In this document: piece by piece, positions 2,601 to 23,930 of the stretch
Layout of the letters: every line of letters begins with the position of its first letter
How positions within the stretch are numbered: the stretch's first letter is position 1
Origin: a virus
Virus record (IMG/VR): IMGVR_UViG_3300030103_001098
Location: 1 to 31,818 of that record
DNA: 31,818 nt
Reading direction: 5' to 3' (one strand)
Notes under the pieces: generated by a model
Told to the model about the DNA's origin: nothing
Database searches by the model: none
What the model saw: only the letters and a program-made list of their open reading frames with translations
Position numbers and translations under genes: made by a program

Positions 2601-2619
2601 TTTAGATTTCAAATCTAAA
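2601..2619 (-). promoter_or_regulatory. Palindrome abutting the fibre ribosome binding site
   Basis: TTTAGATTT-C-AAATCTAAA is a perfect inverted repeat with nine-base arms and a one-base centre. On the minus strand its last AAA is part of the fibre Shine-Dalgarno AAAGGTG, five bases from the ATG. It could be a protein operator, or as RNA a hairpin with a few central bases unpaired that limits fibre translation. No T-run follows, so it is not a typical terminator. Confidence 0.5.
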
Positions 2620-2641
2620 TTACAGAATTGTTTAACTTGAG

Positions 2642-2651
2642 CAACGCACAA
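2642..2651 (-). promoter_or_regulatory. Late-gene motif TTGTGCGTTG, copy 3
   Basis: TTGTGCGTTG on the minus strand lies in the 80-base gap before the fibre gene. The same ten bases occur at 13649-13658 and 16977-16986, each ahead of a structural block. A partial copy, TTGTGCG, lies just upstream at about 2666-2672. Candidate late promoter or activator site; no -10 box stands at a constant distance in the three copies. Confidence 0.45.
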
Positions 2652-2672
2652 AAAACAATTTTATCCGCACAA

Positions 2673-5600
2673 TTAAAATCTACCTATTCCTATAGATCCA
2701 ACATTATCATCAACTGCTCTAGTTAAATTATTAGTAAAACCTTTTAACCAAAATAGTTGAGCAAAAGGCAAAACTCTACCAAGATCTTTTGTACCTTCTC
2801 CTATATTCCCAGTAAGAAGATTTTGAAAAGCTCTGTAATAATCTAACCCAACAGAAGGACCTGCACCTGCAACAGCAGTAACAGCATCAGCAATGTTTGG
2901 TTCTTGTGGATATTTAGGTGCAAGAATACCATTTGTTATGTTTGGACCACCAAGAGCAAGAGAGGTAGCCATAGAGGTATAAAACAAATCACTGTAAAGT
3001 GGTGCTAATCCAGAATAATCAAATGCCCTAGCAAATTGATCCTGATAACTAAGCTCTACATAATCAGGGGTTCTTACTTGCAGCACCATATACCCCAAGC
3101 CAAGAGCAGCAGCACTACCAATAAATTGACTCTTTATTTGACCATGAGCAAAAGCGCCCATTGTTTTATTAACAGCAGCAAGACTGTAACTATAAAACTG
3201 AAATGGCAGACCAAGCAATCCACTTTCTATTCTAGCATACCCTCTATATTTAGAATCTTCTTTCATTCCAAATTTTCTTGCAACATGCATAGGAATGTAT
3301 GCAATACCGTCTGTAATAATTGGTTTATCAGCAGGAGTTCCCATTAGAATAGTATTTGCAACACCAGAGCCTAATGCATTTCTAAATCTATTTTGAGCAA
3401 GCTCATCTGTCCATGTATCTGAGTTTGCTAAATATAAACCAGACTCACCTTTTTCCCATTTACCCTGTTGTTTTGCAATTCGATTAGCAATAGGAGCATC
3501 AATCAAATATCTTGCTAAATAATCTTGCTCCATTTTAGTTGCTTTGCCCTGAGATAATCTTACAGAATAATCTATTAAAGTATGACTGCGCATCATAGCA
3601 TCAAAGTCTTTAAATATTCTTGTTAATGGAGCTAATCCATTTAATAAATAAAACGCATTTTTAGACTTATCAAAAATATTTGAGCGCAAAGGATTGTTTC
3701 CAAGATCATCTACTAATCTTAAATGCACACTGCCAAACAATATTTCTAATGCTTCACCTGCTATTCTAGCCTCTTTACCACCAAGTTTAATTTGGTTGTT
3801 TTGCATAACACCAAACAAACCTCTCATGGTTTTACCAAGCCCATGCTCCATAATAATCTTTGCAGGTTCAGTAAGTGTCGCAATACCTGCCGAACCTAAG
3901 TACCCAAGCTGCGCTGCGGTTCTTAATACTTCGGCTGCTTTATAATCCCAAGAACTAGGATCTCTATGTATAACAGTTCCCGCAATTCTTTCATAAAGAT
4001 GTCTTTGATCTCTAAGGACAGCATTTCTTTTTTTTTCTTTTACACCTGCATCTATTAAATCTAGCTCTTGATCGTCTAATAGTTCGTCAATAGATCTACC
4101 GCCAAACTGCTTAGAAAACTCATACCTAGACCCAGTTCTTGTAGTGTAAGCTCTCATTACTTGAATAGGATTAGTGTGTATAAATTCTAAAACTTCTGAG
4201 TTTGGTATATCAATCATTCTGTGTTTCAAATGTTTTGATTTACCCATACCAAAAAATGCTTGGTCAAAATCTAATGGATCACCATTATTAATAATTTTAT
4301 CTGTGATGTCTTTAACTCTAGCATTTACATCACTTGTTCTTGTAGAAAGTCTAAAAGTTTCAACACCATCTTTTGTCATTCTTTCTATTTCAGCAGGGTT
4401 GTCTTTAAACCATCTAGCTAAAACAGTTTCAAATTTTTCTCTATTTTTTTTAATATAGTCCCTGTCCCAATACCTTGGTCTAAATACAGTTTCATTTCTT
4501 GGTTTTACTTTTGGTTCTTCACCTATTTCATCAAGAATAGACTGATGCATTTCCATTGTTTGCCTTTGTCTAGCAATAGATCTATTTATTGCAGCTTTTG
4601 CATCTTTGGTTTTTGCTGTCTTAAGTTTTTTTTCTAAAAAATCTATTCTGTTCTGTCGTTTTTTAATATCAGTTTTATAGAAAGCATTACTTCCAATCAT
4701 GCCCTCTTCACGTAATCTAACTTCCCAATCATCATAAAACTTGTTTAATGCAGACATTGCTTCTGACTCAAAATTATCAGCAGCCTTTTCTCCACGTATT
4801 ATTTTTGCATCTACTCTTTCAACCCATGACTCAAAATCAGATCTTTTGTGAAGATAGTCTAATGGTTTGATTGCACCTTTGCCTGTTGATTTCCCCCATA
4901 TCTGTACAAGGTCATCATAAACCTGAACCATTTCGCCATCTAATAATTTAGCGTTCTGATGAACAGAAGGTCTTAATGATTTACCTGCTTTGTTTGCAGC
5001 AAGTAATATTCCAGAATCATTTGCTATCTCTAACGTTGTTAGCTTTACGCTGTCAGGAATACTTTTGTCTTGCAGTATTCTTTTCATTGGCGTTGTTACA
5101 GCATTATAAAGCCATGAGTTAGTAAAGATACTATCAGCAATGCTTAAATCTGTAGTTGCTGTAGAAGGATCTCCAACAGTATCGAAGTCAGATAACTTTT
5201 GGCTTTTGTCAAAACCCTCACCTACAATCGTAGGCTTGTATGTAGGATCTATAGATTGTCTAAGATTATTTATTTCTACTTCTGCATCTCTAGTTGCTCT
5301 AGCTCTTCTTGTTATTGGTATAGATATAAGACCTTGTAGGGCAAAACCAAATGCAGCCGCACTGCCAATATTTATAGCGGCCTCTTGTTTTGTAGCCAAA
5401 GGATCAAAGGGATAACGAATTGCTTCCTGCCCTGCTACAATTGCACCAGTAGCAGTACCAGTTTTTAAAGCTTTGTATGCTATGCTACCGCCCTTTATAA
5501 AAGGAAGTGGTGTATAATTAATAATATCAAAAGCCTCTGCTCCCATTTGCATACCAATAGAGGCTCTTCCATAAATATCTCTTCTAGAAATATTCTCTCT

Positions 5601-5885
5601 TAAATCTTTTTCTAAATGCCTTAAATGTTCCATACTAGTTGCTCTAGCAAGTTCAACAGAATACATTTTTAAATCATCAGAAACATTATCAACTGCGCTA
5701 AAACCATCCTCTACTTCGGGACGCCAACCAAATTTATTGTACTCTCTAACTCTGTCTATAAGAGGATCGTATCTCATGCCAAGCATAGAGCCTACTACCT
5801 CCATAAACTCAGGACTTTCTTGCTCTTCAATTGGTCTATCAGGTAAATACTCTATAACAGGTTTTGTTCTTAAGGCATTTTTCAT
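2673..5885 (-). CDS. Large internal virion protein (T7 gp16-position)
   Basis: 1070 aa. It is the last of three proteins between the tail tube genes and the fibre, the place of T7 gp14, gp15 and gp16, which leave the head and form the DNA ejection channel. Alanine- and glycine-rich hydrophobic stretches occur near residues 130-190 (YTPLPFIKGG, INIGSAAAFGFALQG) and in the last third (FIGSAAALGLGYMVLQV). A charged helical section with KKRQNRIDFLEKKLK lies between them. I see no N-terminal lytic transglycosylase domain such as T7 gp16 carries. The ATG overlaps the previous stop by one base. Role inferred from size and order. Confidence 0.7.
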   Translation of the reverse strand: MKNALRTKPVIEYLPDRPIEEQESPEFMEVVGSMLGMRYDPLIDRVREYNKFGWRPEVEDGFSAVDNVSDDLKMYSVELARATSMEHLRHLEKDLRENISRRDIYGRASIGMQMGAEAFDIINYTPLPFIKGGSIAYKALKTGTATGAIVAGQEAIRYPFDPLATKQEAAINIGSAAAFGFALQGLISIPITRRARATRDAEVEINNLRQSIDPTYKPTIVGEGFDKSQKLSDFDTVGDPSTATTDLSIADSIFTNSWLYNAVTTPMKRILQDKSIPDSVKLTTLEIANDSGILLAANKAGKSLRPSVHQNAKLLDGEMVQVYDDLVQIWGKSTGKGAIKPLDYLHKRSDFESWVERVDAKIIRGEKAADNFESEAMSALNKFYDDWEVRLREEGMIGSNAFYKTDIKKRQNRIDFLEKKLKTAKTKDAKAAINRSIARQRQTMEMHQSILDEIGEEPKVKPRNETVFRPRYWDRDYIKKNREKFETVLARWFKDNPAEIERMTKDGVETFRLSTRTSDVNARVKDITDKIINNGDPLDFDQAFFGMGKSKHLKHRMIDIPNSEVLEFIHTNPIQVMRAYTTRTGSRYEFSKQFGGRSIDELLDDQELDLIDAGVKEKKRNAVLRDQRHLYERIAGTVIHRDPSSWDYKAAEVLRTAAQLGYLGSAGIATLTEPAKIIMEHGLGKTMRGLFGVMQNNQIKLGGKEARIAGEALEILFGSVHLRLVDDLGNNPLRSNIFDKSKNAFYLLNGLAPLTRIFKDFDAMMRSHTLIDYSVRLSQGKATKMEQDYLARYLIDAPIANRIAKQQGKWEKGESGLYLANSDTWTDELAQNRFRNALGSGVANTILMGTPADKPIITDGIAYIPMHVARKFGMKEDSKYRGYARIESGLLGLPFQFYSYSLAAVNKTMGAFAHGQIKSQFIGSAAALGLGYMVLQVRTPDYVELSYQDQFARAFDYSGLAPLYSDLFYTSMATSLALGGPNITNGILAPKYPQEPNIADAVTAVAGAGPSVGLDYYRAFQNLLTGNIGEGTKDLGRVLPFAQLFWLKGFTNNLTRAVDDNVGSIGIGRF

Positions 5886-8800
5886 TATGGTAAATCCACA
5901 CCATAAAATTTAATAACAGGAAGTTTTCTAAAAATACTATCTTCTGCAAAAAATGGCTTCGCACCCCTTTCCCTAGCTTTTTCTTCTTCTTCTCTAGCTT
6001 TTGCTTGAATAGATCTTAACAATTGATTGTATTTATTTTGTGCAAATTTTTCAGTCATACTTGTGTCAAACAAAGGCCATGTAAGCTCAGAAGAACCAAA
6101 CTCATCGAGTACTTTGTCATAAATAAGAGGTCTTATTTCATTGTTTTCATCTCTAAAATAAGCATAAAACTGGGGAATATCGCCGCCATCAAAAGGTACA
6201 AGAAATACCTCTTTTGTTTGCCCTGTTACTACAGTATCTTTCATTATTCTTTTTGAGCCACTTCTCGTTGAAACTTCTCTTTTTTTAATATAAGAAATAT
6301 CTTGTGGCTCTCCTAATCTAAATTCTCTAGGAAGTTCTTGATTAACAAGTTTAATAAACTCAGCTTTTTCTTCTGGATCTGGGAAAACTATGTCTAGTGA
6401 CATTTTAGAAACACTCTTACCACGAACAAATGGACTGTTAGGATCTATAACATGTTCAGATGGTTTATAATTTTCATCAAAATAATTAGTAAGCTCTTCT
6501 ATTATTTCTTGAGATGTTTTACCCATTTCAGCATACATTTCTGCTATAGGCGCAAGATCTGACACAACTACGGTATCTGGAGATATTTTGTTTTGAATAA
6601 ACTCAACAGGAGATAATTGACTAAATACTCTATCTCTATTTATTTTTGCAGTAGGAGAATTAGCTTGTTCTTTTATTTCTAATAGTATTTCATTAGCTGT
6701 TTTTTCATCTCCAAAGTATGCTTTTCTTCGAGCAACCTCCCTTAACAAAGCTGTATTTTCCCCAAAAATATCTCCAAATCTATTAACAGGACCAGATGGG
6801 CTTTCATCATTAAATAATTGAATCGCATGTTTAAGAAGTGTATCAGCGTCTACTTCTGGCGCAGTACCACTTAAAAAGTTATTAAGACCAGATATTAAAC
6901 TTTCTGGTAATGTAATTCTTGCTAGTGGGTAAAATGCAGGTGTTAAAGAATTTGGGTCAGCAGCAGAAGAAATGTTAAAATTATCTGACATTATATTGTC
7001 CATTTCTTCTCTGTGTTTTTTTTCTTTTTTTGTATTGCTTGCTGTAATAGTTTCAATTCTTAATTGCAAAAGCTCGTCAGCTTTTTTTCTCTCTTTTCCT
7101 TTTTTAGTTTCATCATCTTTTATGGCATTTTCTAAAGATGACAGGTTGCGAATAAATTTGTCGGCAACAACGTTACTTTCAGAAATAATTTTTATTATTT
7201 TATCGGCTGTAAGCAACTCAGACTCGCTAAGACCCCTATTATCGTTACCTTTACTCCCTATGTATATTTGCATTTTATTTAAAGTATCAGAAGATGGTGA
7301 ATTAAGATCATTCAGCATAGACTTTGCAGTGTTATAAGATAAACTTTGTTTTAACTGATTTTTTTCTGGAATACCTATATAAGTAGCATTCTCTATTTCT
7401 TCTTTATGTTTTAAAATATCTTCATCAGTAACAGAATTATCTCCTATACCTTCAATTAAAGCAGCATGCTTTTCATTAAGATCTAAGGCCAAAAACTGTT
7501 TTTTAAGAATTTCATTATCTTTATCTTCTGCATTCTTAAGATATTCCCTTGAGTAATCTAAATCTTCAGAACTATTATAAAAAGAAATATTATCATTTCT
7601 TAGAGAAAAAATTATTTTTCTTTGGAATGCACTTAACTCATTACCTATATTAATATTGCCGCCAGTTAAAAAACTATTTACTTTATCTATCTGACCATCC
7701 AAAGCCACTAAGCTGAGAAAAGCGTCAAGATGTTCTCTTCTTGCTTTTTCTTTTAACTTTTTGTGATCCTTTTCATTAGTATTTTTTTCTATATTATCAA
7801 TTATATTTTGGGCTTTATTGTTTGTATCCATAAGGAAATTCACAACATCAACCATTGATCGATTGTTTTTTATATCAGAACCATTGCGTAATAAAAGACC
7901 TGTAGGGTTTTGATTTAAAAGGCTATCCTTAAAACGATCCTGCTCAATTTGTAATTCAAGCGCTGCTTCAGCATTTTGCCTTGATTCTAATTGTTCATAA
8001 GTAGATCTAAATTCTTTAATACTTGATAAAATTGTTGACCTATTATCCTTACTAACAAATTTAAATTTATTATTTTCATCTATAAGTCCAGAAATTTTCA
8101 TCTTTATAAAATCAGGAAGATTTTCTGCATTATTATTTTTAATTGCAATTTCTAAGAGAATCCTGTCATTAGGATCTACCATATCAGAACCGCGCCCAGT
8201 ATGAATTTCTTCATATACTTTTGATATAAAACCAACCATAAAAGAAGCGCTGTATTCAGCATCAAAAGCACTAGGCGCTGATGCATTTAAAGTAGCTGAT
8301 AAAACACCATCTTCATTCCTGCCAATCCCAGACTCTCGGTATTGCTCAAACATTTTTACATTTTTATTTAAGCCAAAGTCATAAGAAACTTCATAGTCCA
8401 ACTGGTTTTTATCAATAATGCTTCGAGCATTTAATTCTTTCTGTCTTAGTCTTTGCTTCTCCAACATATTTGAATATGTAGCAGCGCCATACTTTTGCCC
8501 TTCATTAAGTATAAAGTTAGTATAAGCAGTTTTTTTGCCACCTTCTTCAGAAGATTTAGCCATAGACTCTAAGTATAAGGAAAACTTTTCTTTATATTTC
8601 TCTGCACCATAAGGGTCATCAATATATTCTGTTGCAATTTCCCTTCCCTTTTCTTTAAACTCATTTTCAATTTCCAATTGAAATCTATCGCTTATAACTC
8701 TAGCATAAGCTTCTGCGCCGACTCTGCCAAAGAATGGGTTGTCTCCAATCCAATCTAAAGCCTCAGGCTTTCCAGTTAAAGGATTTAAGGTTGTTATTTT

Positions 8801-8995
8801 TTTTGAGGAAACTTCCTGTGCTTCTTGTGTAGCAGATATAGTTGACTGCCTAGCCATCTCATTAATAGCTATACTTGTAAGCTTTCCTATTGACTCAGAA
8901 ATATTTGCGTATTTTTCTGACTCGCCAGTGTTAATCCTTACTACACCAACTGGTCCTATATTTTTGTACTGTCTTGTTGCTCTTACAATAGGCAT
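5885..8995 (-). CDS. Internal virion protein (T7 gp15-position)
   Basis: 1036 aa, very rich in charged residues and apparently mostly helical, with Lys/Glu-rich stretches (for example NEKDHKKLKEKARREH). No signal peptide or membrane segment is evident. It sits between a gp14-like small protein and a gp16-like large one, and joins the latter by a one-base TAATG overlap. By analogy with T7 gp15 it would be part of the internal core and periplasmic ejection tunnel. The amino acid sequence has no motif I can name, so the call rests on length, composition and order. Confidence 0.65.
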   Translation of the reverse strand: MPIVRATRQYKNIGPVGVVRINTGESEKYANISESIGKLTSIAINEMARQSTISATQEAQEVSSKKITTLNPLTGKPEALDWIGDNPFFGRVGAEAYARVISDRFQLEIENEFKEKGREIATEYIDDPYGAEKYKEKFSLYLESMAKSSEEGGKKTAYTNFILNEGQKYGAATYSNMLEKQRLRQKELNARSIIDKNQLDYEVSYDFGLNKNVKMFEQYRESGIGRNEDGVLSATLNASAPSAFDAEYSASFMVGFISKVYEEIHTGRGSDMVDPNDRILLEIAIKNNNAENLPDFIKMKISGLIDENNKFKFVSKDNRSTILSSIKEFRSTYEQLESRQNAEAALELQIEQDRFKDSLLNQNPTGLLLRNGSDIKNNRSMVDVVNFLMDTNNKAQNIIDNIEKNTNEKDHKKLKEKARREHLDAFLSLVALDGQIDKVNSFLTGGNINIGNELSAFQRKIIFSLRNDNISFYNSSEDLDYSREYLKNAEDKDNEILKKQFLALDLNEKHAALIEGIGDNSVTDEDILKHKEEIENATYIGIPEKNQLKQSLSYNTAKSMLNDLNSPSSDTLNKMQIYIGSKGNDNRGLSESELLTADKIIKIISESNVVADKFIRNLSSLENAIKDDETKKGKERKKADELLQLRIETITASNTKKEKKHREEMDNIMSDNFNISSAADPNSLTPAFYPLARITLPESLISGLNNFLSGTAPEVDADTLLKHAIQLFNDESPSGPVNRFGDIFGENTALLREVARRKAYFGDEKTANEILLEIKEQANSPTAKINRDRVFSQLSPVEFIQNKISPDTVVVSDLAPIAEMYAEMGKTSQEIIEELTNYFDENYKPSEHVIDPNSPFVRGKSVSKMSLDIVFPDPEEKAEFIKLVNQELPREFRLGEPQDISYIKKREVSTRSGSKRIMKDTVVTGQTKEVFLVPFDGGDIPQFYAYFRDENNEIRPLIYDKVLDEFGSSELTWPLFDTSMTEKFAQNKYNQLLRSIQAKAREEEEKARERGAKPFFAEDSIFRKLPVIKFYGVDLP

Positions 8996-8999
8996 ACTA

Positions 9000-9527
9000 T
9001 TAATTCTCTTTATTAGTTAAGGCTGTATTGCTTTGTGAGTCTGAAGTAGCAAATAAATTTCTGAAGTCTGCACTTGTAGAAAGATCATACATATTGCTTA
9101 AAAGATTAGTTGTAGCAACAGACCTCATTCCTGCCGCCACATTCTGACCGTATTTATATGAAACAGATGCTTGAGTTTGTAAATTAGCCTTTGTTAGTTC
9201 AAGCTGAGACTCTATAGTTCTTACATCTTCTTGAACAATATCTCTGTTTCTTTTCATATAAGCGTCAACAGATCTATCTGTACGACCTAACATATTAAAG
9301 AAGGCTATGTTTTGAGACTCTGCTATTTTTTGATCTTCAAGTCTCCTTCTCATCCTTTGATTTGCTTCAGTCTGTGCAGCAAAAAGCTCAGAAACATATT
9401 GCCTAGCTTGTAATTCTCCTGCTTCTCTTTCTTTTTGAGCAGCGTCTTGTGCCGTATCATAAGATTTTTTTGCGCCGAAAAGAGCTAAAAAAGTTGTAAT
9501 TATGGGTATTGGATTTACTGGCGGCAT
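9000..9527 (-). CDS. Small internal virion protein (T7 gp14-like)
   Basis: 175 aa. The N-terminus is hydrophobic (PIPIITTFLALFGAKK), followed by a long alanine-, glutamine- and arginine-rich helical region (AQDAAQKEREAGELQARQ, NQRMRRRLEDQKIAES). This matches the look of T7 gp14-type proteins that insert in the host outer membrane during ejection. It begins at the stop of tail tube B (one-base overlap) and ends four bases before the next gene, so the three internal proteins form one translational unit. Confidence 0.65.
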   Translation of the reverse strand: MPPVNPIPIITTFLALFGAKKSYDTAQDAAQKEREAGELQARQYVSELFAAQTEANQRMRRRLEDQKIAESQNIAFFNMLGRTDRSVDAYMKRNRDIVQEDVRTIESQLELTKANLQTQASVSYKYGQNVAAGMRSVATTNLLSNMYDLSTSADFRNLFATSDSQSNTALTNKEN

Positions 9528-11806
9528 TAGAAAGTCACCTCCGCAACCATACCATTAACTTGAACTTTTAATGGCGCTGTTTGTGTAATTGTTACTTGTG
9601 GATCTCTGCTATAACCTAACAATCTAAATTCCTTTTTACCAGTAACAGGCTGTCTAGCTTGACTAAAATCACTATTTACATTTCTAATAATTAACTTTTT
9701 GCTATTTACAGATACAGACAAAGTATCATTCATATCAAGTATTATGCTAGATAAGGTTCTTGGCCTCCCTGTTTCTGGTCCAATGTTAGTATTTAAATCT
9801 AACGGATTAGTCTTTAGCTCTACATTAAAACCAAAGCCAACCTCACAACTTGTTAGAGATGTATCAACAGCAGACACATTTAAATTGCCACCAGATACAG
9901 TAAAAGACCCAAGGTAATCAGTACCATTAATAACATCTAATACTGCACCGTTCTCAAATTGTGAAGATACAGAAAATACACCATTGGAAATTCCTGTGTA
10001 TGTCTTAGAGCAATCTAAATTAGCAGTCTTATCCAATTCACATAAAACAAAACTATTAGAACCAGAACCTAAGTCTACGTTCAAAACTGAAAATAGTTTA
10101 TCAGATACACTAGCTATAGAATGAAACTTTCCAGAGGTTTCGAAGTTTGTCCAGCCCGCAATATTTTCTACCTTATTCAAGTTGTACACCACAAGACTTC
10201 CATCAGCATTCACAAAGAAAACAGCAGCATCAGAAGAGCCTATATCACCTATGGTAACTGATGATTGAATAGGGTTATTAATTAAATGAGCAGATAGCAA
10301 TGATATTGGATCTGATTTGTAAGCAGCTTCAGAGTCACTAAATACAAAAGACCTTACGGCAGAACCGCCTAACTGTGTAAATAATGTAGAGCCGTAGAAT
10401 GGTTGAGGTCTGGTAAACGTACTACCAAATGAAGTCTGCCTTTTTACTCTTGCATTAGTAGGGGTAATTGGTTCATTCTGAAATGATGGGATAAAAAACT
10501 CAGAACCCGCTGTAAAAATATGTATATCTCTATTTGAAACAAAATGTCTTATAGTAGCAACTTCACCAATGCTTAGTATTAATTCTATGGACTCATCATC
10601 TAAAGCTTCACCTATATCAAAGTTATAATACAAACCAGATTTGCTTGCCCATATAGTATCAGGTTGTGATGGAGTGCCACCAAACCACAATCTATTCTCG
10701 TGAAAGCCTACAGCAGCAGGGTATCCTCTTAATTTAGAATATGATTGTTCGAACCATTGTTCTGTTGGAGCATGAGTAATAATTTCTATATTACCCCCAC
10801 CATCTTCAGAAACATTTGCAGCAGAACCAGCTGTTAAAGTATACCTATCCTCATTGATTACAGCTTGTATAGTTCTAGCGCCATTAATTTGTGCGGCATT
10901 TATTCCCCCAACAGCAGTGGCATTTCTTACAGTAACAGAGTCACTAGCAGACATACCATGATTTATATGCTGTATTTCTATTGTAGTAGAGCCATCTACT
11001 GTTCTTATAGCGTTCGCATCAAGCTCAACATACAACTCATCTATTACATTTCCAGTAGCTTGAAGATTAGATTGAACGCTAGTAATTAATATTTCAGATT
11101 CATGATACCTCAGTCTAACGCCTACATGCTTAGAATTTGGAAAATCACCAGTTAATTCTGATGCACCACCAGTAAGATCAAAGTAAGGAAGGCTAGTAGT
11201 TACAGTTATTCCTGTGCCTGTTGTAGCAGATGGATTTAATGTGACGCCAGTAGCTTGGAAATGATAGTAAGGCTGATATATCCTAGCAGCACCCGCTTGT
11301 GTCTGGAAAACAAAAGGCTCAACTTGAAAACTATTTAAACCAGTTCTTATAAGCTGTTGTGTTTCAAATGTAGCATGAGAAAGAAATAAAATATCACCAC
11401 CTTGAGCATAAGTTATTTCGTGTAAGTATTCAGCAGTCCATACAAGAGCATCACTATTTGTATCAGCTGTAAGAGTAGTTGCTAAAGTAACAGCGCCAGT
11501 AGTAGGGTTAACAAAAAATATTTCGACTTTTTGATTTGATAGAGCAATTATATATTGTTCATCATCTGAGAATATAAATGGAATAATTCTTACTTGCTGC
11601 GTTTTAGATGTATCTTCTGTAACACCAGTAAAGTCATGTATAAATTTAAAGCCACCTCTTTTCTTTACGCCACCTTCCGACATAAGGAAAAAGTTTTTAA
11701 CACTTTGTGCTGAAGAGTTATATATAGCAGAATCCGTCCTTGATGACAAAGACGGACTAATTTCTCCATACTGGAAGTTTGTTATTGGTACTCTGGCTTT
11801 TCGCAT
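9527..11806 (-). CDS. Tail tubular protein B (gp12-like nozzle)
   Basis: 759 aa, close to T7 gp12 (about 790). The N-terminus (VPITNFQYGEISPSLSSRTD, then KNFFLMSEGGVKKRGG) is characteristic of gp12-like and phage stabilisation proteins of small podoviruses. The rest is beta-rich, with LRGYPAAVGFHENRLWFGG and a propeller-like middle. It forms the lower tail tube. It directly follows tail tube A with a one-base overlap. Confidence 0.85.
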   Translation of the reverse strand: MRKARVPITNFQYGEISPSLSSRTDSAIYNSSAQSVKNFFLMSEGGVKKRGGFKFIHDFTGVTEDTSKTQQVRIIPFIFSDDEQYIIALSNQKVEIFFVNPTTGAVTLATTLTADTNSDALVWTAEYLHEITYAQGGDILFLSHATFETQQLIRTGLNSFQVEPFVFQTQAGAARIYQPYYHFQATGVTLNPSATTGTGITVTTSLPYFDLTGGASELTGDFPNSKHVGVRLRYHESEILITSVQSNLQATGNVIDELYVELDANAIRTVDGSTTIEIQHINHGMSASDSVTVRNATAVGGINAAQINGARTIQAVINEDRYTLTAGSAANVSEDGGGNIEIITHAPTEQWFEQSYSKLRGYPAAVGFHENRLWFGGTPSQPDTIWASKSGLYYNFDIGEALDDESIELILSIGEVATIRHFVSNRDIHIFTAGSEFFIPSFQNEPITPTNARVKRQTSFGSTFTRPQPFYGSTLFTQLGGSAVRSFVFSDSEAAYKSDPISLLSAHLINNPIQSSVTIGDIGSSDAAVFFVNADGSLVVYNLNKVENIAGWTNFETSGKFHSIASVSDKLFSVLNVDLGSGSNSFVLCELDKTANLDCSKTYTGISNGVFSVSSQFENGAVLDVINGTDYLGSFTVSGGNLNVSAVDTSLTSCEVGFGFNVELKTNPLDLNTNIGPETGRPRTLSSIILDMNDTLSVSVNSKKLIIRNVNSDFSQARQPVTGKKEFRLLGYSRDPQVTITQTAPLKVQVNGMVAEVTF

Positions 11807-12393
11807 TAACTACGCCTATTAGTAATAAACCTCGAAGTAATAAATTTTTTGGTTGTTTGTTGCTGAGAGTCAGTTGATCTGGCCTTGGCTAAAAGTCTTT
11901 CGTATTGATTTGACATAAGATTAGCTAAAGATTCATCTCTTGTTAGTGCTGTAGCAAAGATACTTGCCATTGCATACTGAACGCAAACTGAAAAATAAGA
12001 AGGCCAATCCGCCTCATTAGCCCTATAAGTGTAATCTATTATAAGCTCGTCTTGCTCAGATGCGTCACAAAATATTTTATTGCCGTATGTATTATACTCA
12101 ATCTGAAGATCTCTTACGGTAACAGCGTGAGTAAATAAAATACCAGATGGTAATTGATATGCAGCATCAAACCTTCCAGTAGGTGCTTCAGACAATCTAT
12201 TTAAAACGGCCTGATTACTAGAAAACCTCCAACGAGTAGACACTAAGTTTGATCTAGCAATATCTTCATACATATTACCTGAAATCAAAGCCTCTGAAGT
12301 ATCATCTTCAAAAGAGGTAATAGGCTCTGCACCGACAAGGATTAAAGCCCTACTACATATATCTATTGCACTATTTGATGGTGTACTTGCCAT
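11806..12393 (-). CDS. Tail tubular protein A (gp11-like gatekeeper)
   Basis: 195 aa, the usual gp11 length. The N-terminus SAIDICSRALILVGAEPITSF and the later WRFSSNQAVLNRL and DYTYRANEADWPSYF match the tail tubular A/head completion family, which seats below the portal. The ATG is only ten bases from a GC-rich hairpin (12403-12420), and I see no Shine-Dalgarno between them, so initiation may be weak or depend on upstream translation. Confidence 0.85.
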   Translation of the reverse strand: MASTPSNSAIDICSRALILVGAEPITSFEDDTSEALISGNMYEDIARSNLVSTRWRFSSNQAVLNRLSEAPTGRFDAAYQLPSGILFTHAVTVRDLQIEYNTYGNKIFCDASEQDELIIDYTYRANEADWPSYFSVCVQYAMASIFATALTRDESLANLMSNQYERLLAKARSTDSQQQTTKKFITSRFITNRRS

Positions 12394-12402
12394 GTTTAAG
12401 TA

Positions 12403-12420
12403 TGGGGGCAGAAGCCCCCA
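12403..12420 (-). terminator. GC-rich hairpin between capsid and tail genes
   Basis: A seven-pair stem (TGGGGGC with GCCCCCA) closes a four-base loop, very stable for this AT-rich genome. On the minus strand the stem is followed by ATACTTAAAC rather than a T-run, so it may be a weak or factor-dependent terminator, a pause, or an RNA end protecting the upstream capsid message. T7 has its late terminator at the equivalent place, between genes 10 and 11. Confidence 0.5.
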
Positions 12421-12429
12421 CTCCTATTA

Positions 12430-12693
12430 TTAATCCCCGTCAGTTTCAACGATGGCTGTGCCATCAGAAACATCAACTACTGAGCCAGTGTTCGAAAGAA
12501 CATTAACAAAGTTAGTTGTCGGAGTATTGGTGTCTACAACAATAATTACATCTCTAACAGCAAGCATATTAGCTGCGCTATTAAAATATCCTGATGTATT
12601 TACAGTAGCAATAGCGTCTGCTGAACTATAAAGCCAAAGATCGCCATTAGATGCACCACCAATTCGAGTAAGATTTGCTGCGCTATAAGCCAT
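12430..12693 (-). CDS. Capsid-associated small protein, possible decoration
   Basis: 87 aa, beginning MAYSAANLTRIGGASNGDLWLY and continuing SADAIATVNTSGYFNSAANML, then VIIVVDT. I recall similar proteins directly downstream of the capsid gene in many small phages. The small, beta-rich, lysine-free sequence and the position suggest a head decoration or stabilisation role, which is inference. The Shine-Dalgarno AAGGAGAG is good. It probably shares a transcript with the capsid gene, 11 bases upstream. Confidence 0.75.
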   Translation of the reverse strand: MAYSAANLTRIGGASNGDLWLYSSADAIATVNTSGYFNSAANMLAVRDVIIVVDTNTPTTNFVNVLSNTGSVVDVSDGTAIVETDGD

Positions 12694-12704
12694 GATTACT
12701 CTCC

Positions 12705-13514
12705 TTAGTTATTGTCTAGGACTTCGTAGATACCGTTATCATCGATAGCTACTGATCCCATTGACATCATTGATGTTGCTAAGTGAGAAACTTTCTCGGC
12801 AACATAGTTTACTTCTGTTTGGACATCAGAGTTAATTCCGATACCCATTGCGCTTGTATGGTAAGCAAAGTTTTTACCACCTGACACAGCAGACGTTGAG
12901 AACACCTTGAAACCAAGGAACTCTTTCATTGTCATGCCACCTGCAAATGGTAAGTTTTGAGGCCCAACAAAGTCACTTGAAGCAAATTCAGTAATTGCAA
13001 ACAAATCTGCAAAACCAGCAGGAGACATTGCAAGATAACGCTGACCATCCTCAGGAACACTTGCAGTACCAAATGTTTCAAACAATGATAGTAAATCTGC
13101 TTTTGCGAGAGCAGAGCCAGTGTCATGTATTTGAGTAGAGTTAGCACCCGCATCCATTGCAGTAATGATAAGTTCATCTGTTTTTCTACCAAGTGCAGCA
13201 GCAGCAGATTGAGAAACAGCTTGACGCTCGTTAATATTAACCTTTAATTCATCAAGCTTATCGATGTACTCAGCGGCATAATAATCTTCCATTGTCGCTT
13301 CGACAGTAGTGTGCGTTAACTCCATAGGAGTAACATTACCATTGCGAGATTTAGTTGAAGCTGATCCAGCGCCTATTTTCTGGAATCGTGCAGTTGAACC
13401 TGACACATTTGTAGAGCGAATAGTATTCCGTAGCTTAGAACCCATACGCTGATACGCCATGTGAACTTCAGTTTCAAACTGCTTTATAAAGGCTTGGTCT
13501 ATTGTATTAGCCAT
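12705..13514 (-). CDS. Major capsid protein
   Basis: 269 aa. The N-terminal half contains IDQAFIKQFETEVHMAYQRMGSKL and the middle ARFQKIGAGSAS, MELTHTTVEATMEDYYAAEYID and RKTDELIITAMDAGA, followed by an HK97-fold-like C-terminal half with GQRYLAMSP and MTMKEFLGFKVFSTS. This matches a capsid family frequent in marine podovirus genomes. It follows the scaffold gene after a 150-base gap holding a late-motif copy, consistent with separate high-level expression. The Shine-Dalgarno is AAGGAC. Confidence 0.88.
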   Translation of the reverse strand: MANTIDQAFIKQFETEVHMAYQRMGSKLRNTIRSTNVSGSTARFQKIGAGSASTKSRNGNVTPMELTHTTVEATMEDYYAAEYIDKLDELKVNINERQAVSQSAAAALGRKTDELIITAMDAGANSTQIHDTGSALAKADLLSLFETFGTASVPEDGQRYLAMSPAGFADLFAITEFASSDFVGPQNLPFAGGMTMKEFLGFKVFSTSAVSGGKNFAYHTSAMGIGINSDVQTEVNYVAEKVSHLATSMMSMGSVAIDDNGIYEVLDNN

Positions 13515-13664
13515 TTTTACAGTCCTTAATTGAGTTTCTGATTGCTACGAGTATCCATTCTTACATATCAATTCGGGTATCCATAAGGGCCGATCAATGC
13601 GATATGGGTCGTAATAAATTATTCTAAACAACAATTTTTGCAAAAATGCAACGCACAAATTTAA
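13515..13664 (-). promoter_or_regulatory. Capsid gene leader with late-motif copy 2
   Basis: Largest gap in the structural block. On the minus strand it holds TTGTGCGTTG (13649-13658), then the 12-base palindrome TTTTTGCAAAAA (13635-13646), an AT-rich stretch with TAGAAT, and two GTATCCAT copies in the untranslated leader (plus-strand sense). This layout suggests a dedicated capsid promoter and leader. No standard -35/-10 pair with 16-18 base spacing is clear. Confidence 0.5.
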
Positions 13665-14420
13665 TTATGTGTTATAAAGTTTTTGAAAACCCTCATTAAC
13701 TTGATTGATGAAATCATTATTACGTTTTGCAGGATGCCAATATTTCTCATCCTGCATCATTTCTCTAAGCCCCTGTTCAGTAATTTTACTAGGAGAATCT
13801 GCTTGAGAAGAAATGCTAGGGTCTTTCATCTTCTCCATAATAAATTCCAAAACAACAACACCATCAGCAGTTTCTGTCAATCTTTCTATAGATGGCATAT
13901 GATCTTCTGGGAAAAATTGATTAGCAAAAAGTGCAGCAGCCTCTATTCTAGAGTTTGCATTATCACCTAGCTTCTCTAATTCTTCTGTAGCATTAGGAAC
14001 TGTAGACTCAATTGCATTAATAACTTTGTTTAAACCATTAGAAAACTCTTCCTGACTAAAACCGTTTTCAAAAGAATGATCTGCCCACCACTTTAAAAAA
14101 TCTGTATCTATAACAGCTTCTTCAATAACATCATCTGGTAAAGCATAATCCCCAGAAGTCTTAGGCCTGTCTTTATAAGCTTCTGTTTGAACCTCATTTA
14201 AAAACTTTTCTCTAAGATCCTCTTCTTTAGTTCCAAGCTTTGACTCAAGCTCTTTATATGCTTTTGCTAAATCTTCACCACTATTGTATTTTTCAGGAAG
14301 CCACTCAGGTCTATCTGGCTTAGCCTCAAGATCTTCAGCTACCACAAAGTCCCTATCTTCAGCTGCTGGCAATTCTGTTTGTGTTTCTTCTGCTACTTCT
14401 GTTTGCTGTTCTTCACTCAT
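13665..14420 (-). CDS. Capsid assembly scaffold protein
   Basis: 251 aa, strongly acidic at the N-terminus (MSEEQQTEVAEETQTELPAAED), then the conserved RPEWLPEKYNSGEDLAKAYKE block that opens T7-like scaffold proteins. The rest is helical, with a C-terminal part (ITEQGLREMMQDEKYW) that would contact the capsid. Scaffold between portal and capsid is the standard order. The start overlaps the previous gene by eight bases. Confidence 0.85.
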   Translation of the reverse strand: MSEEQQTEVAEETQTELPAAEDRDFVVAEDLEAKPDRPEWLPEKYNSGEDLAKAYKELESKLGTKEEDLREKFLNEVQTEAYKDRPKTSGDYALPDDVIEEAVIDTDFLKWWADHSFENGFSQEEFSNGLNKVINAIESTVPNATEELEKLGDNANSRIEAAALFANQFFPEDHMPSIERLTETADGVVVLEFIMEKMKDPSISSQADSPSKITEQGLREMMQDEKYWHPAKRNNDFINQVNEGFQKLYNT

Positions 14421-14676
14421 TTGATTTTACTCTATGTCCTCTTTGCATGTGACGTTCTATTAAACCAACAAGATAACGCTGACCCTCAAGATGCCTTAGT
14501 TCATCGGTGGATATATTAGGACCACTTACTAACTCAATAGTAATACTCCTTAGATATTTTAGGATTTCTTTTCCAGTAGGTTCGGAAAAAACAGAAGCTA
14601 TGTTTAAGCTTATTTTATTTTCTTCTGTTTTCTTTCTTGCAATTCCATCTAAACCAATGTGACTATTCTGCGGCAA
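14413..14676 (-). CDS. Bbp19-like small structural-region protein
   Basis: 87 aa. The core VFSEPTGKEILKYLRSI and HLEGQRYLVGLIERHMQ resembles the short Bbp19-type phage proteins usually found between portal and scaffold, from memory. Function is unknown. The gene overlaps the portal end by 14 bases and the scaffold start by eight, so it is translationally coupled on both sides. Confidence 0.65.
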   Translation of the reverse strand: MPQNSHIGLDGIARKKTEENKISLNIASVFSEPTGKEILKYLRSITIELVSGPNISTDELRHLEGQRYLVGLIERHMQRGHRVKSNE

Positions 14677-16207
14677 TCTGTTGTCCTGTAACTTGTTGCG
14701 GTTGTTGCTGTTGTTGCATTTGCTGCATCATTGCAACTATCTGTCTACGCTCTTCTGCGTCACGAATCAACCCATCAGGCACACCAAACTTTTTGGCTAA
14801 ATGAATTGCAGTTTCTTCAGAGTTAATTAACATGTTTGTCATATCAGGACCAAAATACGCACTTACAAGTTCTAAGAATCTAGAAACAGCACTAATGTCT
14901 TGGTTTGATTGAGCTTGAGCAAGAGGAGAAACAGACCTGATCTTAACCTCCCGACCATTCACTGTTGGCAAATCAATTCTTCCCTGTTTCTTTAATATAT
15001 AAATAACCCTTTGCAATACTGGCTGAACTAACTCTGCTTGCAATCTTCCAAAAGCAGACCCTATTCTTCTAGACAGGTCTGCCATGCGCTCGGCAACCTC
15101 AGTAGCAGATGCAGGAGTTCTGTCAGGATTTCCTAGCATCTCGCTATAAAGTGCCCTCTTAATATTATTACGCATATCGCTCAACACCAAATCAGCTACA
15201 TCAAAACGACCTGCTGCTTGTATTGGCTGCAATCCACCAGATTGAGGAGACTTGGGTATTATTGTGCCAGGGACTAAATTGATGGTATCTGGATTTACTA
15301 TTCCATCATCATCCATCTGGTATATGCCAGATATAGCCATCTGCGCATTTTCTAATATTAATTGAATAGTTAGATTTGTAGTTTTTATTGCAGATAAAGC
15401 ATTTATTAATGGGCCTCGACCGTATACTTCCCCTGCGCATTTAGACCATCTAAAACAAACATATGGATTTGCACCAACACCTTTAAACTCTTTCTGCAAG
15501 AGATAGGTTTCTGTAGAAGTATCCACAACATAATGAAGGTATCCCTCCTCATTCTTCTTAGAATAATCTTTACAAATTACCTCTAATACTTTGCATTTAC
15601 CCTCAGGATCTCTTTGTATTCTATGCAATACTTTGTCATCAAAATCTTTCTCATTGTATATATTTTTTAGATCAGAATTTCTAATGCCTTTTCGCTCTCT
15701 AAATACATGATCGATCTTATCATCAGCACCAGTATCAAGAACAACATGAGGCAAAGGAACAGCAGAGAAAACTATAGGATTAATTGCATCGCCCTCTTCA
15801 ATGCAAAGAACACCAGTTCCAACAGCTAAATCCATAAAGGATTCATGGACTTCCTGAGAAAAATTAGAGTTCTGTAGTATCTCAAAGACATACTCAGTAA
15901 CCTCATCTAAATCATTATCAATTAAATCTTTATCTTGATCTGGTATTTCAGAACCAGAAGTTAAGTCTGCCCATCTTGCAAAATTGGGAACTAATCCCGA
16001 TTGAAGCCTCGAAGCAAATTCTTGAACACCAACCACTGCCGTTTCATCAAAAATCTTATCATCTCTACGCTGTCCAGCAGTTTCGTAATAAAAAGATTCG
16101 CGCTGTGGAAGAGCATATTCATAACACTCTTCAAAAAGATCAACAAAGTTTTGCCTATGTGCTTTAGCTTTTTCATAACGTTCCAAGTATTTTTTTGAGT
16201 CATGCAT
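14663..16207 (-). CDS. Portal (head-tail connector) protein
   Basis: 514 aa, near T7 gp8 length (536). It shows the T7-like connector family pattern: KAHRQNFVDLFEECYEYALP near the N-terminus, IFDETAVVGVQEFASRLQSG, PYVCFRWSKCAGEVYGRGP in the middle, and SEMLGNPDRTPASATEVAERM, which is the hallmark of the family. The C-terminus is glutamine-rich (MMQQMQQQQQPQQ). It forms the dodecameric DNA channel at the head vertex. It lies next to the scaffold region and just downstream of an unknown protein, with a two-base gap. Confidence 0.92.
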   Translation of the reverse strand: MHDSKKYLERYEKAKAHRQNFVDLFEECYEYALPQRESFYYETAGQRRDDKIFDETAVVGVQEFASRLQSGLVPNFARWADLTSGSEIPDQDKDLIDNDLDEVTEYVFEILQNSNFSQEVHESFMDLAVGTGVLCIEEGDAINPIVFSAVPLPHVVLDTGADDKIDHVFRERKGIRNSDLKNIYNEKDFDDKVLHRIQRDPEGKCKVLEVICKDYSKKNEEGYLHYVVDTSTETYLLQKEFKGVGANPYVCFRWSKCAGEVYGRGPLINALSAIKTTNLTIQLILENAQMAISGIYQMDDDGIVNPDTINLVPGTIIPKSPQSGGLQPIQAAGRFDVADLVLSDMRNNIKRALYSEMLGNPDRTPASATEVAERMADLSRRIGSAFGRLQAELVQPVLQRVIYILKKQGRIDLPTVNGREVKIRSVSPLAQAQSNQDISAVSRFLELVSAYFGPDMTNMLINSEETAIHLAKKFGVPDGLIRDAEERRQIVAMMQQMQQQQQPQQVTGQQIAAE

Positions 16208-16209
16208 TA

Positions 16210-16923
16210 TTAATACCTACTATAAAAACCAATTCCACCGCGAGATCCTGTCATTAATGAACCTCTACTTCTGCCGCCTCTTTTACCAGTTGCTTCTGAC
16301 ACAGCGACATCGCCCTTAGTAATACTCAACCCTCTTTCCCTACCTGTTAAAACTTTTTTTCCAGACCCAAACTCAGCCATCCCCTCTAATCTTCTTTTTA
16401 ATAAAGATCTTTTCTGTCTGGCTTTCTCCAGCCTAGATAATCTTAATTGCTCAGAAGCAACCTCTTCCTGTTTTCTTACCGCTTCAGATGGCTCTATTAT
16501 AATAGTTTGTGGTGTAACACTAGTAGTACCTATTGGTTTGCTAGGATCAACAGTTTTCAAAGATATGTCTTTATCCTCAGATTTACTCGAAGTAACATCA
16601 CCAGATTCTAAATCTTTTAATTCTTGAGTAAGATCTTTTACCCCTGTTTCTTCGTCTTTGTTCTCAGTGATTATCAGGTCTTTTGCATTTGAATTAAGCC
16701 AAGCTAATAACTGTCGCTTTTCTACATCATTACTATCATCTCTAAATATAGGACTTAGAGTACCATCTGGAAGAATAGCTTGTGCGCCAGAGTGCTTAAA
16801 TAGTCCTGCTCCTGCATTTTGCAATTTTACACCCGCTGATTGATATTTTAAAAGATCTTCAGCACCAGCCGAAAGAATATTTTTAAGCTTCATGTCAAAT
16901 GGTTTTTTGCTAAATATACCCAT
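16210..16923 (-). CDS. Unknown charged protein between TerL and portal
   Basis: 237 aa with no family I recognise. A short N-terminal segment (MGIFSKKPFDMKLKNILSAG) leads to a charged, Ser/Asp/Lys-rich middle that is probably disordered. A basic helix follows (LRLSRLEKARQKRSLLKRRL), then a Gly/Arg/Ser-rich tail ending GGRSRGSLMTGSRGG and FYSRY. The RNA- or DNA-binding-looking tail and the site before the portal suggest a virion or packaging-linked role, but that is a guess. It is the first gene after late-motif copy 1. The Shine-Dalgarno is AGAGGAA. Confidence 0.7.
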   Translation of the reverse strand: MGIFSKKPFDMKLKNILSAGAEDLLKYQSAGVKLQNAGAGLFKHSGAQAILPDGTLSPIFRDDSNDVEKRQLLAWLNSNAKDLIITENKDEETGVKDLTQELKDLESGDVTSSKSEDKDISLKTVDPSKPIGTTSVTPQTIIIEPSEAVRKQEEVASEQLRLSRLEKARQKRSLLKRRLEGMAEFGSGKKVLTGRERGLSITKGDVAVSEATGKRGGRSRGSLMTGSRGGIGFYSRY

Positions 16924-16975
16924 CTTTCAAATTCCTCTTAATTTCTTTTTTGTAAATCACAGAAAAAAATAAATT

Positions 16976-18505
16976 TCAACGCACAAGTGACCAAACACTT
17001 GGCTTTTTTGCAACACTTTTAGGTTTTCTGTTAAATACATCAAAGTCTTTTCTTGCATTAAAAACTTGTGCAGATTTTTGGTTTGACATCAAAGCCCTAC
17101 CTTCTCCTGCGCCTAACATTAAATACTGAAGTGCATCGTGAATATGTGAATACATATTCTTATCAGGTTTATCGGCATACCTCTCACCGCTTACCTCCAT
17201 TCTTTTGTAAGCATAGCCACCTTCAAACCCCTTAAGCAATTGCTGACATCTTCTGTCAACTAAAAACGCAGGTTTACCTTCAACCATTTTATTAAGTTGT
17301 TGCGCCACTGATTCCAAGCGAAGATCCACAGAATTACTCGGGGCGGGAAAAGCACGTAACCCTGCACCTCTAAGTATGTGGAAAGGGGTAGATTCGTCCG
17401 TTTGCGCCCTAAAATCACCCGCAGGATCGCCATATATATAAACATCGGAAGCCTCAGAAAACCTAGTAGCAATTTCATTTCGTAATACCTCTGCAAATCT
17501 AACAATACCCATATCAAAAGCTACTACCTCTGATTGGATTAACCATCTATTTCTTACCTTCTGACCTATAACAGCAGCAGGTGTAAGACCAAAATCTATA
17601 CCAATGTATAAAGGCAAGCCTGATGCTATAGGTATTTCCTCTTTAGCAATATGCGTTTCACTTACAAACATTGGATATACTGGCTTTCCATCTTGTATTG
17701 TACCTAACTTATTCATAACATACACATCAATCCAAGATTTTGTTTTACCCTGAATAAGATTAGTGTAATAATTTCTCATCATATTCTTTTTGTTTTCAGC
17801 TTCACTATTTGACTTGTAGCTTTCTACCTCACCATCTTCATTATAGATCTCCTTCATTGCAGATGGTTGTGTAAAAAATTGCCAGTTATCAGGCTTGACC
17901 AACATTTTTGCTTGCTCTCTAGGAATGTGATCTGGAACAGGAACCTCTCCTGACATTATAGGCCACCAATGATCTTCCTCTGGTGCGTTGGTATCTGCAA
18001 TAACACCTGTCCAACTAGGTCCGCCATCACGCATAGAAGGAAATCTACCCACCCTCATAGTACAAGCATCAATAATACTTTTGGGTATCTCCCTTGCCTC
18101 GTTAATCCAGATGCCTGTTAACTCGAGGGACAATAATTTTTTAACATCTTCTGGACGGTCAAGAGCAAGGAAGATTACCTCAAGGTCTATGTCTCCCTTT
18201 CTAATGTGATGCGTATAAGGCACAGACCAAGTAAACTTACCCCATTCATTCTCAGGAAACCAATCAAGCCAAGTCTTTATAGTGGTCGTTCTAAGCTGTG
18301 GGTTTGTATTTCTTATAATTGCCCATCGACTTTTCCTTACACCATCAGGACTTTTTTCTTGAGAAAGAGATCTTCTAAATACTTCAATACAACACCCAAC
18401 AGACTTGCCAGATCCAACTGGGCCTCTTATGCCGCGAAAAAAAGTGTTGTCTTTCATAAAATGCTTTAAGACTTCACCATCAGGTTTGTATTTAAAATTA
18501 ATCAA
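16976..18505 (-). CDS. terL: Terminase large subunit
   Basis: 509 aa. The ATPase has Walker A GPVGSGKS at residues 28-35, a Walker B-like GIWINE ending at Glu136, and a coupling-type DTNAPEEDHW at 171-180. The RNase H-like nuclease has Asp304 (YIGIDFGLTPAAV), Asp360 (VYIYGDPAGD) and Asp457 (SHIHDALQY). It cuts and pumps concatemeric DNA into the prohead at the portal. TerS is not adjacent: about ten small genes and 2.2 kb separate them. It overlaps the upstream gene by four bases. Confidence 0.95.
   Translation of the reverse strand: MINFKYKPDGEVLKHFMKDNTFFRGIRGPVGSGKSVGCCIEVFRRSLSQEKSPDGVRKSRWAIIRNTNPQLRTTTIKTWLDWFPENEWGKFTWSVPYTHHIRKGDIDLEVIFLALDRPEDVKKLLSLELTGIWINEAREIPKSIIDACTMRVGRFPSMRDGGPSWTGVIADTNAPEEDHWWPIMSGEVPVPDHIPREQAKMLVKPDNWQFFTQPSAMKEIYNEDGEVESYKSNSEAENKKNMMRNYYTNLIQGKTKSWIDVYVMNKLGTIQDGKPVYPMFVSETHIAKEEIPIASGLPLYIGIDFGLTPAAVIGQKVRNRWLIQSEVVAFDMGIVRFAEVLRNEIATRFSEASDVYIYGDPAGDFRAQTDESTPFHILRGAGLRAFPAPSNSVDLRLESVAQQLNKMVEGKPAFLVDRRCQQLLKGFEGGYAYKRMEVSGERYADKPDKNMYSHIHDALQYLMLGAGEGRALMSNQKSAQVFNARKDFDVFNRKPKSVAKKPSVWSLVR
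16977..16986 (-). promoter_or_regulatory. Late-gene motif TTGTGCGTTG, copy 1
   Basis: The motif overlaps the last codons of TerL (leucine-valine-arginine-stop reads CTT GTG CGT TGA) and lies 54 bases ahead of the 237-aa gene that opens the portal-scaffold block. A T-rich stretch follows. The two other copies are intergenic, so coding constraint does not explain the shared sequence. Confidence 0.4.
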
Positions 18506-20613: not shown

Positions 20614-20668
20614 ATCGAACCTTTCTAACTAAAAATATTTTTCATAGTTGTTGTAAACCTTTTTGAAG

Positions 20669-21235: not shown

Positions 21236-21258
21236 CCCCCCTCTCCCTCTCTCCCCCC
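21236..21258. repeat. 23-base homopyrimidine tract
   Basis: Two runs of six C flank an alternating C/T stretch, giving only purines on the minus strand with G-runs of six, three and six. It is close to a mirror repeat, so it could form a triplex or a G-rich structure. It lies where a terS transcript from the minus-strand TTGACA would start. Confidence 0.7.
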
Positions 21259-21292
21259 ATTGATGCCTGTTTTGATGATACGTTGTCAATAC

Positions 21293-21328
21293 GTGACGTA
21301 GCGTCACTAACAATGTGACGTAGCGTAA
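21293..21328. promoter_or_regulatory. Two operator-like sites, GTGACGTAGCGT
   Basis: GTGACG-TAG-CGTCAC (21293-21307) is an inverted repeat with six-base arms. GTGACGTAGCGTAA (21315-21328) repeats it 22 bases later, two helical turns. A third related copy lies at 22001-22015. The sites lie between two outward-facing TTGACA boxes, so a bound regulator could act on both directions. The helix-turn-helix proteins at 23.5-23.9 kb are candidate binders. Confidence 0.6.
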
Positions 21329-21344
21329 TATACTACAATACCCA

Positions 21345-23459: not shown

Positions 23460-23488
23460 GGGCGGTGTGTCTCCTTCTTATGCCGCCC
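23460..23488 (+). terminator. Possible terminator ending first early operon
   Basis: GGGCGG (23460-23465) and CCGCCC (23483-23488) form a six-pair GC stem with a 17-base loop. The following bases are T-rich but interrupted (TTGACATCTTACTTATTTTT), so termination may be partial. The -35 box of the next promoter begins immediately after the stem. Confidence 0.4.
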
Positions 23489-23537
23489 TTGACATCTTAC
23501 TTATTTTTGCTCCATATATGCAGTATGCAAACATACT
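23489..23537 (+). promoter_or_regulatory. Promoter and operator-like repeat at regulator start
   Basis: TTGACA at 23489-23494 is followed by TATATG at 23515-23520 (20-base spacing, longer than ideal; CATATA gives 18). Transcription would begin near 23526, at the ATG of the regulator (23525), and no Shine-Dalgarno precedes it, so the message may be leaderless as known for lambda cI from its maintenance promoter. AGTATG-CAAA-CATACT (23522-23537) overlaps the start codon and could be an autoregulatory operator. Confidence 0.35.
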
Positions 23538-23809
23538 TAGATACAGTCAAAGATCAAGCAAAGCTTAAGCGTGTAGATTTACTACTTGCATTTAAGGTCG
23601 CGGGACTTCCGACTTCTACATACTACCGAACAATCAATGGGAAAACTGAGATGCGGTTTGAAACTGCATGTTCTGTTTTAGATGCGATAGATGAGCAGCA
23701 CAGAAGAGATGAAGCAGCCAAGCGTGCCAAACAACTACGAGATTCTGGTCAAGCTATTAATAGAAGCTCGGCACGAAAGGGGCTTAAGTCAGGAAAGCTT
23801 GGCACGTAA
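23525..23809 (+). CDS. Helix-turn-helix regulator
   Basis: 94 aa from ATG 23525. Residues 1-55 (YLDTVKDQAKLKRVDLLLAF, then KVAGLPTSTYYRTINGKTEM) look like a Cro/repressor-type DNA-binding domain: helix, turn and recognition helix around LPTSTYYR. The C-terminal 38 residues are basic and overlap the next gene by 119 bases in another frame. A GTG at 23465 would extend it through the hairpin and promoter, so I reject that start. Regulation of the early or late switch is inferred. Confidence 0.65.
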   Translation: MQTYLDTVKDQAKLKRVDLLLAFKVAGLPTSTYYRTINGKTEMRFETACSVLDAIDEQHRRDEAAKRAKQLRDSGQAINRSSARKGLKSGKLGT

Positions 23810-23930
23810 GATTGGTTGCACTGAATCTTTGGTTCACAAGTGGGAGCAGTTCAAGCGCATGCCTTCTGGGTTTATGTTAATGTGTTGGCTAGAGGCTTTA
23901 GAATATGACATCGAAGCAATTAAGAGGTAA
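23691..23930 (+). CDS. XRE-family helix-turn-helix regulator
   Basis: 79 aa. LLIEARHERGLSQESLARKI, then GCTESLVHKWEQFKRMPSGF is a clear Cro/C1-type helix-turn-helix. The start is uncertain: ATG 23691 or 23709, both inside the previous regulator in the +1 frame and without a strong binding site, so coupling or frameshifting may feed it. It overlaps the zinc-protein gene by 26 bases. Two adjacent regulators may form a small switch, though no integrase is seen. Confidence 0.7.
   Translation: MSSTEEMKQPSVPNNYEILVKLLIEARHERGLSQESLARKIGCTESLVHKWEQFKRMPSGFMLMCWLEALEYDIEAIKR

Follow-up and report, generated by a model that had tools for sequence, protein, structure and literature searches.

A ten-base sequence, TTGTGCGTTG, and a protein of 79 amino acids probably form a switch that turns on the virus-building genes of a marine podovirus late, by way of the host RNA polymerase. 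The genome is an IMG/VR record of 31,818 bases (IMGVR_UViG_3300030103_001098, positions 1 to 31,818), analysed at its full length and called the window below. We consider it likely that TTGTGCGTTG is the upstream half of late promoters for the host sigma70 polymerase, and that these are activated by the 79-aa HTH_3/XRE protein bound at the box. In the proposed mechanism, TTGTGCG would be the activator box, lying directly upstream of the -35 and partly merged with it through the last TTG (TTGACA before terS), and a TGn extended -10 with a weak -10 hexamer would follow 16-19 nt downstream. The 79-aa protein, made from the early region, would bind the box at about -42 to -36 and probably contact sigma region 4, recruiting the polymerase to three late units: 237-aa/portal/scaffold, capsid/tail/internal proteins, and fibre/lysis side. 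We infer DNA binding, activation rather than repression, the sigma contact and late timing from comparison of sequences, the last of these because the genes controlled are structural. The use of sigma70 is not certain, given a poor -10 with 3 nt of variation in its position.

The timing of late genes in marine podoviruses lacking a polymerase is the gap addressed here. The paper on Polarivirus skadi describes sigma70 promoters only, close to genes for replication (PMC10504331), and in transcriptome work on a pelagiphage that encodes no polymerase the late switch was left open (PMC12753301). In the present case the comparative sequence of uncultured phages alone names both halves of a candidate switch, the box and the protein, and sharp predictions follow for the binding site, the start sites and a residue that may set specificity. 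As a tentative suggestion, the switch could be of a new type, in which an XRE protein, as a monomer or in tandem, attaches to an asymmetric box of seven bases and takes over sigma70 -35 recognition throughout the late regulon, and this across a large, uncultured group of marine podoviruses, with one site inside the codons of a structural-region gene.

The ten-mer in the window and in related genomes

The minus strand of the window carries terminase, portal, scaffold, capsid, tail and internal virion proteins, and the plus strand recombination and small early genes. The fibre gene spans both ends of the record (1-2592 and 31302-31817), which makes the genome circular or circularly permuted. An attempt to assign a host from contigs of bacterial genomes gave four matches, in MAGs of unrelated phyla, and was unusable. 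The features discussed are collected in Table 1.

Table 1. Positions of the motif copies, associated promoter elements and small early proteins in the window.
Feature	Position	Strand	Remarks
TTGTGCGTTG	16977..16986	-	ahead of the 237-aa/portal/scaffold unit; 68 distinct sites of relatives at the equal place
TGATTTACA, TG element and weak -10 of the preceding site	16951..16959	-	offset 27 from the motif; found by EM
TTGTGCGTTG	13649..13658	-	ahead of the capsid/tail/internal-protein unit; 83 distinct sites of relatives
TGTTTAGAAT, TG element and -10-like hexamer of the capsid site	13621..13630	-	found by EM
TTGTGCGTTG	2642..2651	-	ahead of the fibre and lysis-side unit; 25 distinct sites of relatives
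TGTAATTTA, TG element of the fibre site	2616..2624	-	found by EM
TTGTGCGG, second heptamer copy	2665..2672	-	21 bp upstream of the fibre site; kept in close relatives
TACAACAACT, lost site from terS to the 90-aa gene	20646..20655	-	TTGTGCGTTG with identical flanks in relatives
TTGACA, -35 of the terS promoter	21284..21289	-	preceded by TCACGTA in the window and by TTGTGCG in 11 relatives
84-aa zinc-finger-like protein	23194-23448		weak match to Q-like antitermination PHROG_6060, E 0.003
114-aa small regulator-like ORF	23465..23809	+	extends over the start of the 79-aa gene
79-aa HTH_3/XRE protein, candidate late activator	23691..23930	+	profile, structure model and co-occurrence with the motif

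An earlier note on this DNA, made from the letters alone, had described three copies of the ten-mer in a single orientation, and this was borne out: all three are exact and lie on the minus (structural coding) strand, and plus-strand-reading copies number zero. The same note held that such a recurrence was unlikely by chance. Statistics of the window give this only moderate backing. Dinucleotide shuffles contained 0.07 exact copies of TTGTGCGTTG on average and 1 at most; however, six 10-mers with at least five G+C occur at least three times in the window, against 1.2 expected, and since TTGTGCGTTG was picked post hoc and five others recur as well, the window alone is only moderately convincing. 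The relatives settle the matter. In 293 related loci, gathered via capsid, portal, internal protein, terS and one early protein, the structural strand carries 304 exact copies and the opposite strand 1 (overlapping loci are counted more than once), while the reversed pattern, taken as a control in the first 153 loci, gave 3 against 3. The motif is found in 21 of 25 near-complete relatives, with one to five copies each and on a single strand within each genome. When IMG/VR was scanned for the pattern irrespective of homology, 31 of 118 stretches belonged to the podovirus group studied here, with a strand ratio of 29:2 in favour of the structural strand; the control (reversed) pattern led to the same group in 2 of 80 stretches, 0 of them on the structural strand. 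The motif is unreported in the literature searched, the matches listed there being unrelated sequences only.

Five places are occupied in relatives: upstream of terS, between terS and the 90-aa gene (g90), after terL ahead of the portal block, and upstream of the capsid and of the fibre gene. The places before structural blocks that had been claimed for the three copies of the window were checked in relatives for absence of the motif, and relatives carry it at identical places. The fibre copy lies between the gene of the 1070-aa internal protein and the fibre gene, and the capsid copy 145 nt upstream of its gene. The placing of the copies near gaps needs correction for the third, about 50 nt upstream of the 237-aa gene: it does not lie in a gap but overlaps the 3' end of terL, where it covers the codons L-V-R plus two bases of the stop codon, the first and second.

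Elements downstream of the ten-mer

The absence of a -10 box at a fixed distance, as first noted, calls for some qualification. A fixed TATAAT-like -10 was sought by PWM, with no consistent offset and no good TATAAT; EM on the non-coding sites gave instead TG[CT]T, with a log-likelihood of 326 against at most 55 in shuffles. The site thus has two parts, the ten-mer and, separated from it by 16-19 nt, TG[CT]T (26-29 nt from the start of the ten-mer), after which a sigma70-type but weak -10 hexamer follows.

The relation of the box to the -35 can be read from the terS promoter. TTGACA is kept there in 97 of 105 distinct loci, at a fixed place ahead of a G-rich tract, and TTGTGCG stands directly before it in only 11 loci; the window lacks the box at this place. 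Since TTGACA is kept with or without TTGTGCG, the box is separable from the -35 and directly upstream of it. The last TTG of the ten-mer serves as a -35. TTG-N4-TTG is present in all sites, as a repeat with a period of 7, and the ten-mer has no dyad symmetry (best dyad match 2 of 5), an asymmetry unusual for the box of XRE dimers.

Two further elements were seen around the terS promoter. Directly upstream of its -35 is a palindrome, GTGACGCTACGTCAC (21290-21330, minus strand), and in many relatives TCAC[AG]TA precedes TTGACA; this is perhaps the operator of another regulator. Between the promoter and terS is a purine tract, GGGGGGAGAGAGGGAGAGGGGGG (21236-21258, minus strand), with a G tract at its position in about 100 relatives, which is possibly a packaging signal.

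The 79-aa protein and its loss together with the motif

To find what protein accompanies the motif, all ORFs of the window and its relatives were clustered, and each family was searched with profile HMMs. Among the 25 near-complete relatives (the 30-kb fragment G022 and the outgroup Hodr were set aside), the HTH_3 family was present in 21/21 motif-bearing and 0/4 motif-lacking genomes. It was the only family with perfect agreement (1.0), the next best reaching 0.45. The four negatives have 124-137 nt between the two neighbours of the HTH gene, which are themselves conserved, against 248, and no remnant of the gene by tblastn. In a second set of records the gene was found in all 12 motif-bearing records that hold the neighbouring gene, and the sole informative motif-lacking record of that set, G044, is without it, which brings the informative motif-lacking records to five in total, a small number. 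The other early gene families failed to track the motif, among them the 83-aa HTH protein (27101-27352), found in only 11 motif-bearing genomes and with a member in motif-lacking G014.

The 79-aa protein scores 32.8 bits against PF01381 (HTH_3), above the curated cut-off of 23. Its AlphaFold model reached a pLDDT of 87 from an alignment, the single-sequence fold being poor. XRE structures top the Foldseek list (probability 1.00, E 0.004), and the best fold matches include restriction controller proteins, HipB and P22 c2; a CII-like PHROG also matches, at 6e-6. By profile and modelled fold the protein is a member of HTH_3/XRE, an assignment that stops at the XRE level. Its true start may be at 23709 or 23726. 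About 115 nt are shared, in different frames, by the 114-aa and 79-aa genes, an arrangement that most relatives conserve. The family member in Hodr is only a distant one, with a different recognition helix.

In a tree of terL, portal and capsid, G003 and G014 are nested among motif-bearing genomes and G011 and G012 lie outside, so that the protein disappeared along with the motif on at least two independent occasions. In G003, G011 and G012 the gaps at terL and the internal protein measure 2-29 nt, where most motif-bearing genomes have about 46-80. Such shrinkage after loss of the protein would be expected of an activated promoter that had become useless, and not of a promoter freed of a repressor. 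This argument for an activator is not complete, as G014 keeps a fibre gap of 56 nt although protein and motif are gone.

The pattern of loss bears on the opposite sign of regulation, in which the 79-aa protein would be a repressor and the box an operator over the -35, keeping late promoters closed until replication of the genome titrates the protein. XRE proteins are often repressors, and the box both overlaps the -35 and adjoins the perfect TTGACA before terS; but the core elements of the other sites are weak and seem to need help, and motif-lacking genomes have lost the core elements and most of the gaps, whereas loss of a repressor should spare the promoter. We regard repression as unlikely. 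A little less credence still is given to the idea that another factor reads the motif, be it a host regulator, an unrecognised phage sigma or an antiterminator such as a Q-like zinc-finger protein, with the HTH gene tracking the motif indirectly. A phyletic correlation does not equal binding, and the window does encode a protein with a weak Q-like match (Table 1), yet G003 and G014, which lack the motif, do have a member of the Q-like family, the HTH family alone tracks the motif, and a sigma70 region 2 domain (PF04542) was absent from the genome in a profile search in which the controls matched. A phage RNA polymerase was not found by PHROGs scans; a search with PF00940 gave no match, its own control being silent as well. 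The suggestion in the earlier note of a late activator site used with host polymerase gains support from the places kept in relatives, from the absence of the HTH gene where the motif is absent and from the lack of a sigma domain.

Activation by the 79-aa protein would have parallels in several known systems. As a small XRE regulator the protein is like the C proteins C.AhdI, C.BclI and C.Esp1396I, P22 c2 and lambda CI, which at PRM is an activator beside the -35. As in the class II arrangement of C proteins and lambda CI, the box adjoins the -35 of a weak promoter (it is separable from TTGACA, and the -10 is weak), but a dyad-symmetric operator for a dimer was not found (2 of 5). The lambda CII site, TTGC-N6-TTGC, likewise has direct TTG repeats astride the -35, but the format here is TTG-N4-TTG with a period of 7 rather than 10 bp, and the regulon would be late structural genes where that of CII is lysogeny. 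The C-boxes of the controller proteins of restriction-modification systems lie just upstream of, or overlap, the -35 of a weak promoter (PMC6237814) and serve autoregulation, in contrast to the multi-site late regulon proposed for the marine podovirus motif. T4 MotA is a phage DNA-binding activator that works with the host polymerase at a short asymmetric box in the -35 region, and many of its promoters carry a TGn extended -10 (PMC2988021); redirection of host polymerase through such a box and the TGn element are the points of likeness. However, at MotA promoters the centre of the box is at -30, a good -10 lies 12 +/- 1 bp away, the box replaces the -35 and the genes served are middle genes (PMC2988021), whereas here the ten-mer is followed after 16-19 nt by the TG element, the -10 is poor and TTG is kept downstream of the box; nor is MotA an XRE protein. 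The late promoters of phage 7-11, GTAAtg-(16)-aCTA, are read by a phage sigma factor (PMC8948821). They share with the present sites a bipartite element with a spacing of about 16 nt, a place ahead of late units and the host polymerase core, but phage 7-11 encodes its sigma factor, and the marine podovirus genome is without sigma region 2. Because of the missing dyad, and of a box position and -10 unlike those of MotA promoters, we assign the switch to neither the C-protein/lambda CI nor the MotA type.

The capsid site and its leader

In most relatives a GNAT-like gene, named by eye from the sequence and not by profile search, lies between scaffold and capsid, and the capsid site falls within its F-V-R-C codons near the C-terminus. 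The Val codon at this site is GTG in 93 of 95 cases, against 11% genome-wide, and the Arg codon is CGT, against 22%. The holding of these rare codons indicates that the DNA is selected beyond the protein. The window has a remnant of the gene, its last codons only (13540-13664), with an in-frame stop shortly past the site, and the site is kept. A regulatory site would thus be retained inside codons, and retained after decay of the gene. Where a genome lacks the other sites, its capsid site has drifted too, to FERC in G011 and G012, to GTT in G014 and to FIYC in G003.

A concerted change was found in G007 and G016, each of which has TTGTGCATTG at all three non-coding sites but retains G at the codon-overlapping capsid site, in which A would turn Arg into His. 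Such a change suggests that a single factor recognises the sites. In the 79-aa protein, the second residue of the recognition helix is Val in 4 of 5 genomes with the A-variant site and in 0 others of that set; it may set specificity, although, the genomes being related, this is suggestive only.

An action of the motif in RNA (processing, antitermination or a translation signal), or in DNA packaging or recombination, is very improbable. The motif does lie, strand-specifically, in untranslated leaders, and a conserved hairpin is also present in the capsid leader; but the sequence is identical in unrelated leaders, is joined to a partner element of DNA type, overlaps the -35, stands at variable distances from start codons (54-145 nt), occurs only at the starts of units and is tracked by a DNA-binding protein. 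That the motif is conserved only as protein code, FVRC near the GNAT C-terminus and LVR-stop in terL, deserves practically no weight: two contexts do overlap codons, but the fibre, terS and g90 contexts are non-coding, which already refutes it, the codons used are rare ones, and the window keeps the site after loss of the frame.

The leader of the capsid mRNA (13515-13640, minus strand) is itself conserved family-wide. An Rfam search gave no match for it. It contains a second element, GGAUACYCG, and a hairpin around CCC...GGAUAC, whose stem changes between relatives are compensatory (TCGG:CCGA, GCGG:CCGC, GAAG:CTTC and AAGG:CCTT).
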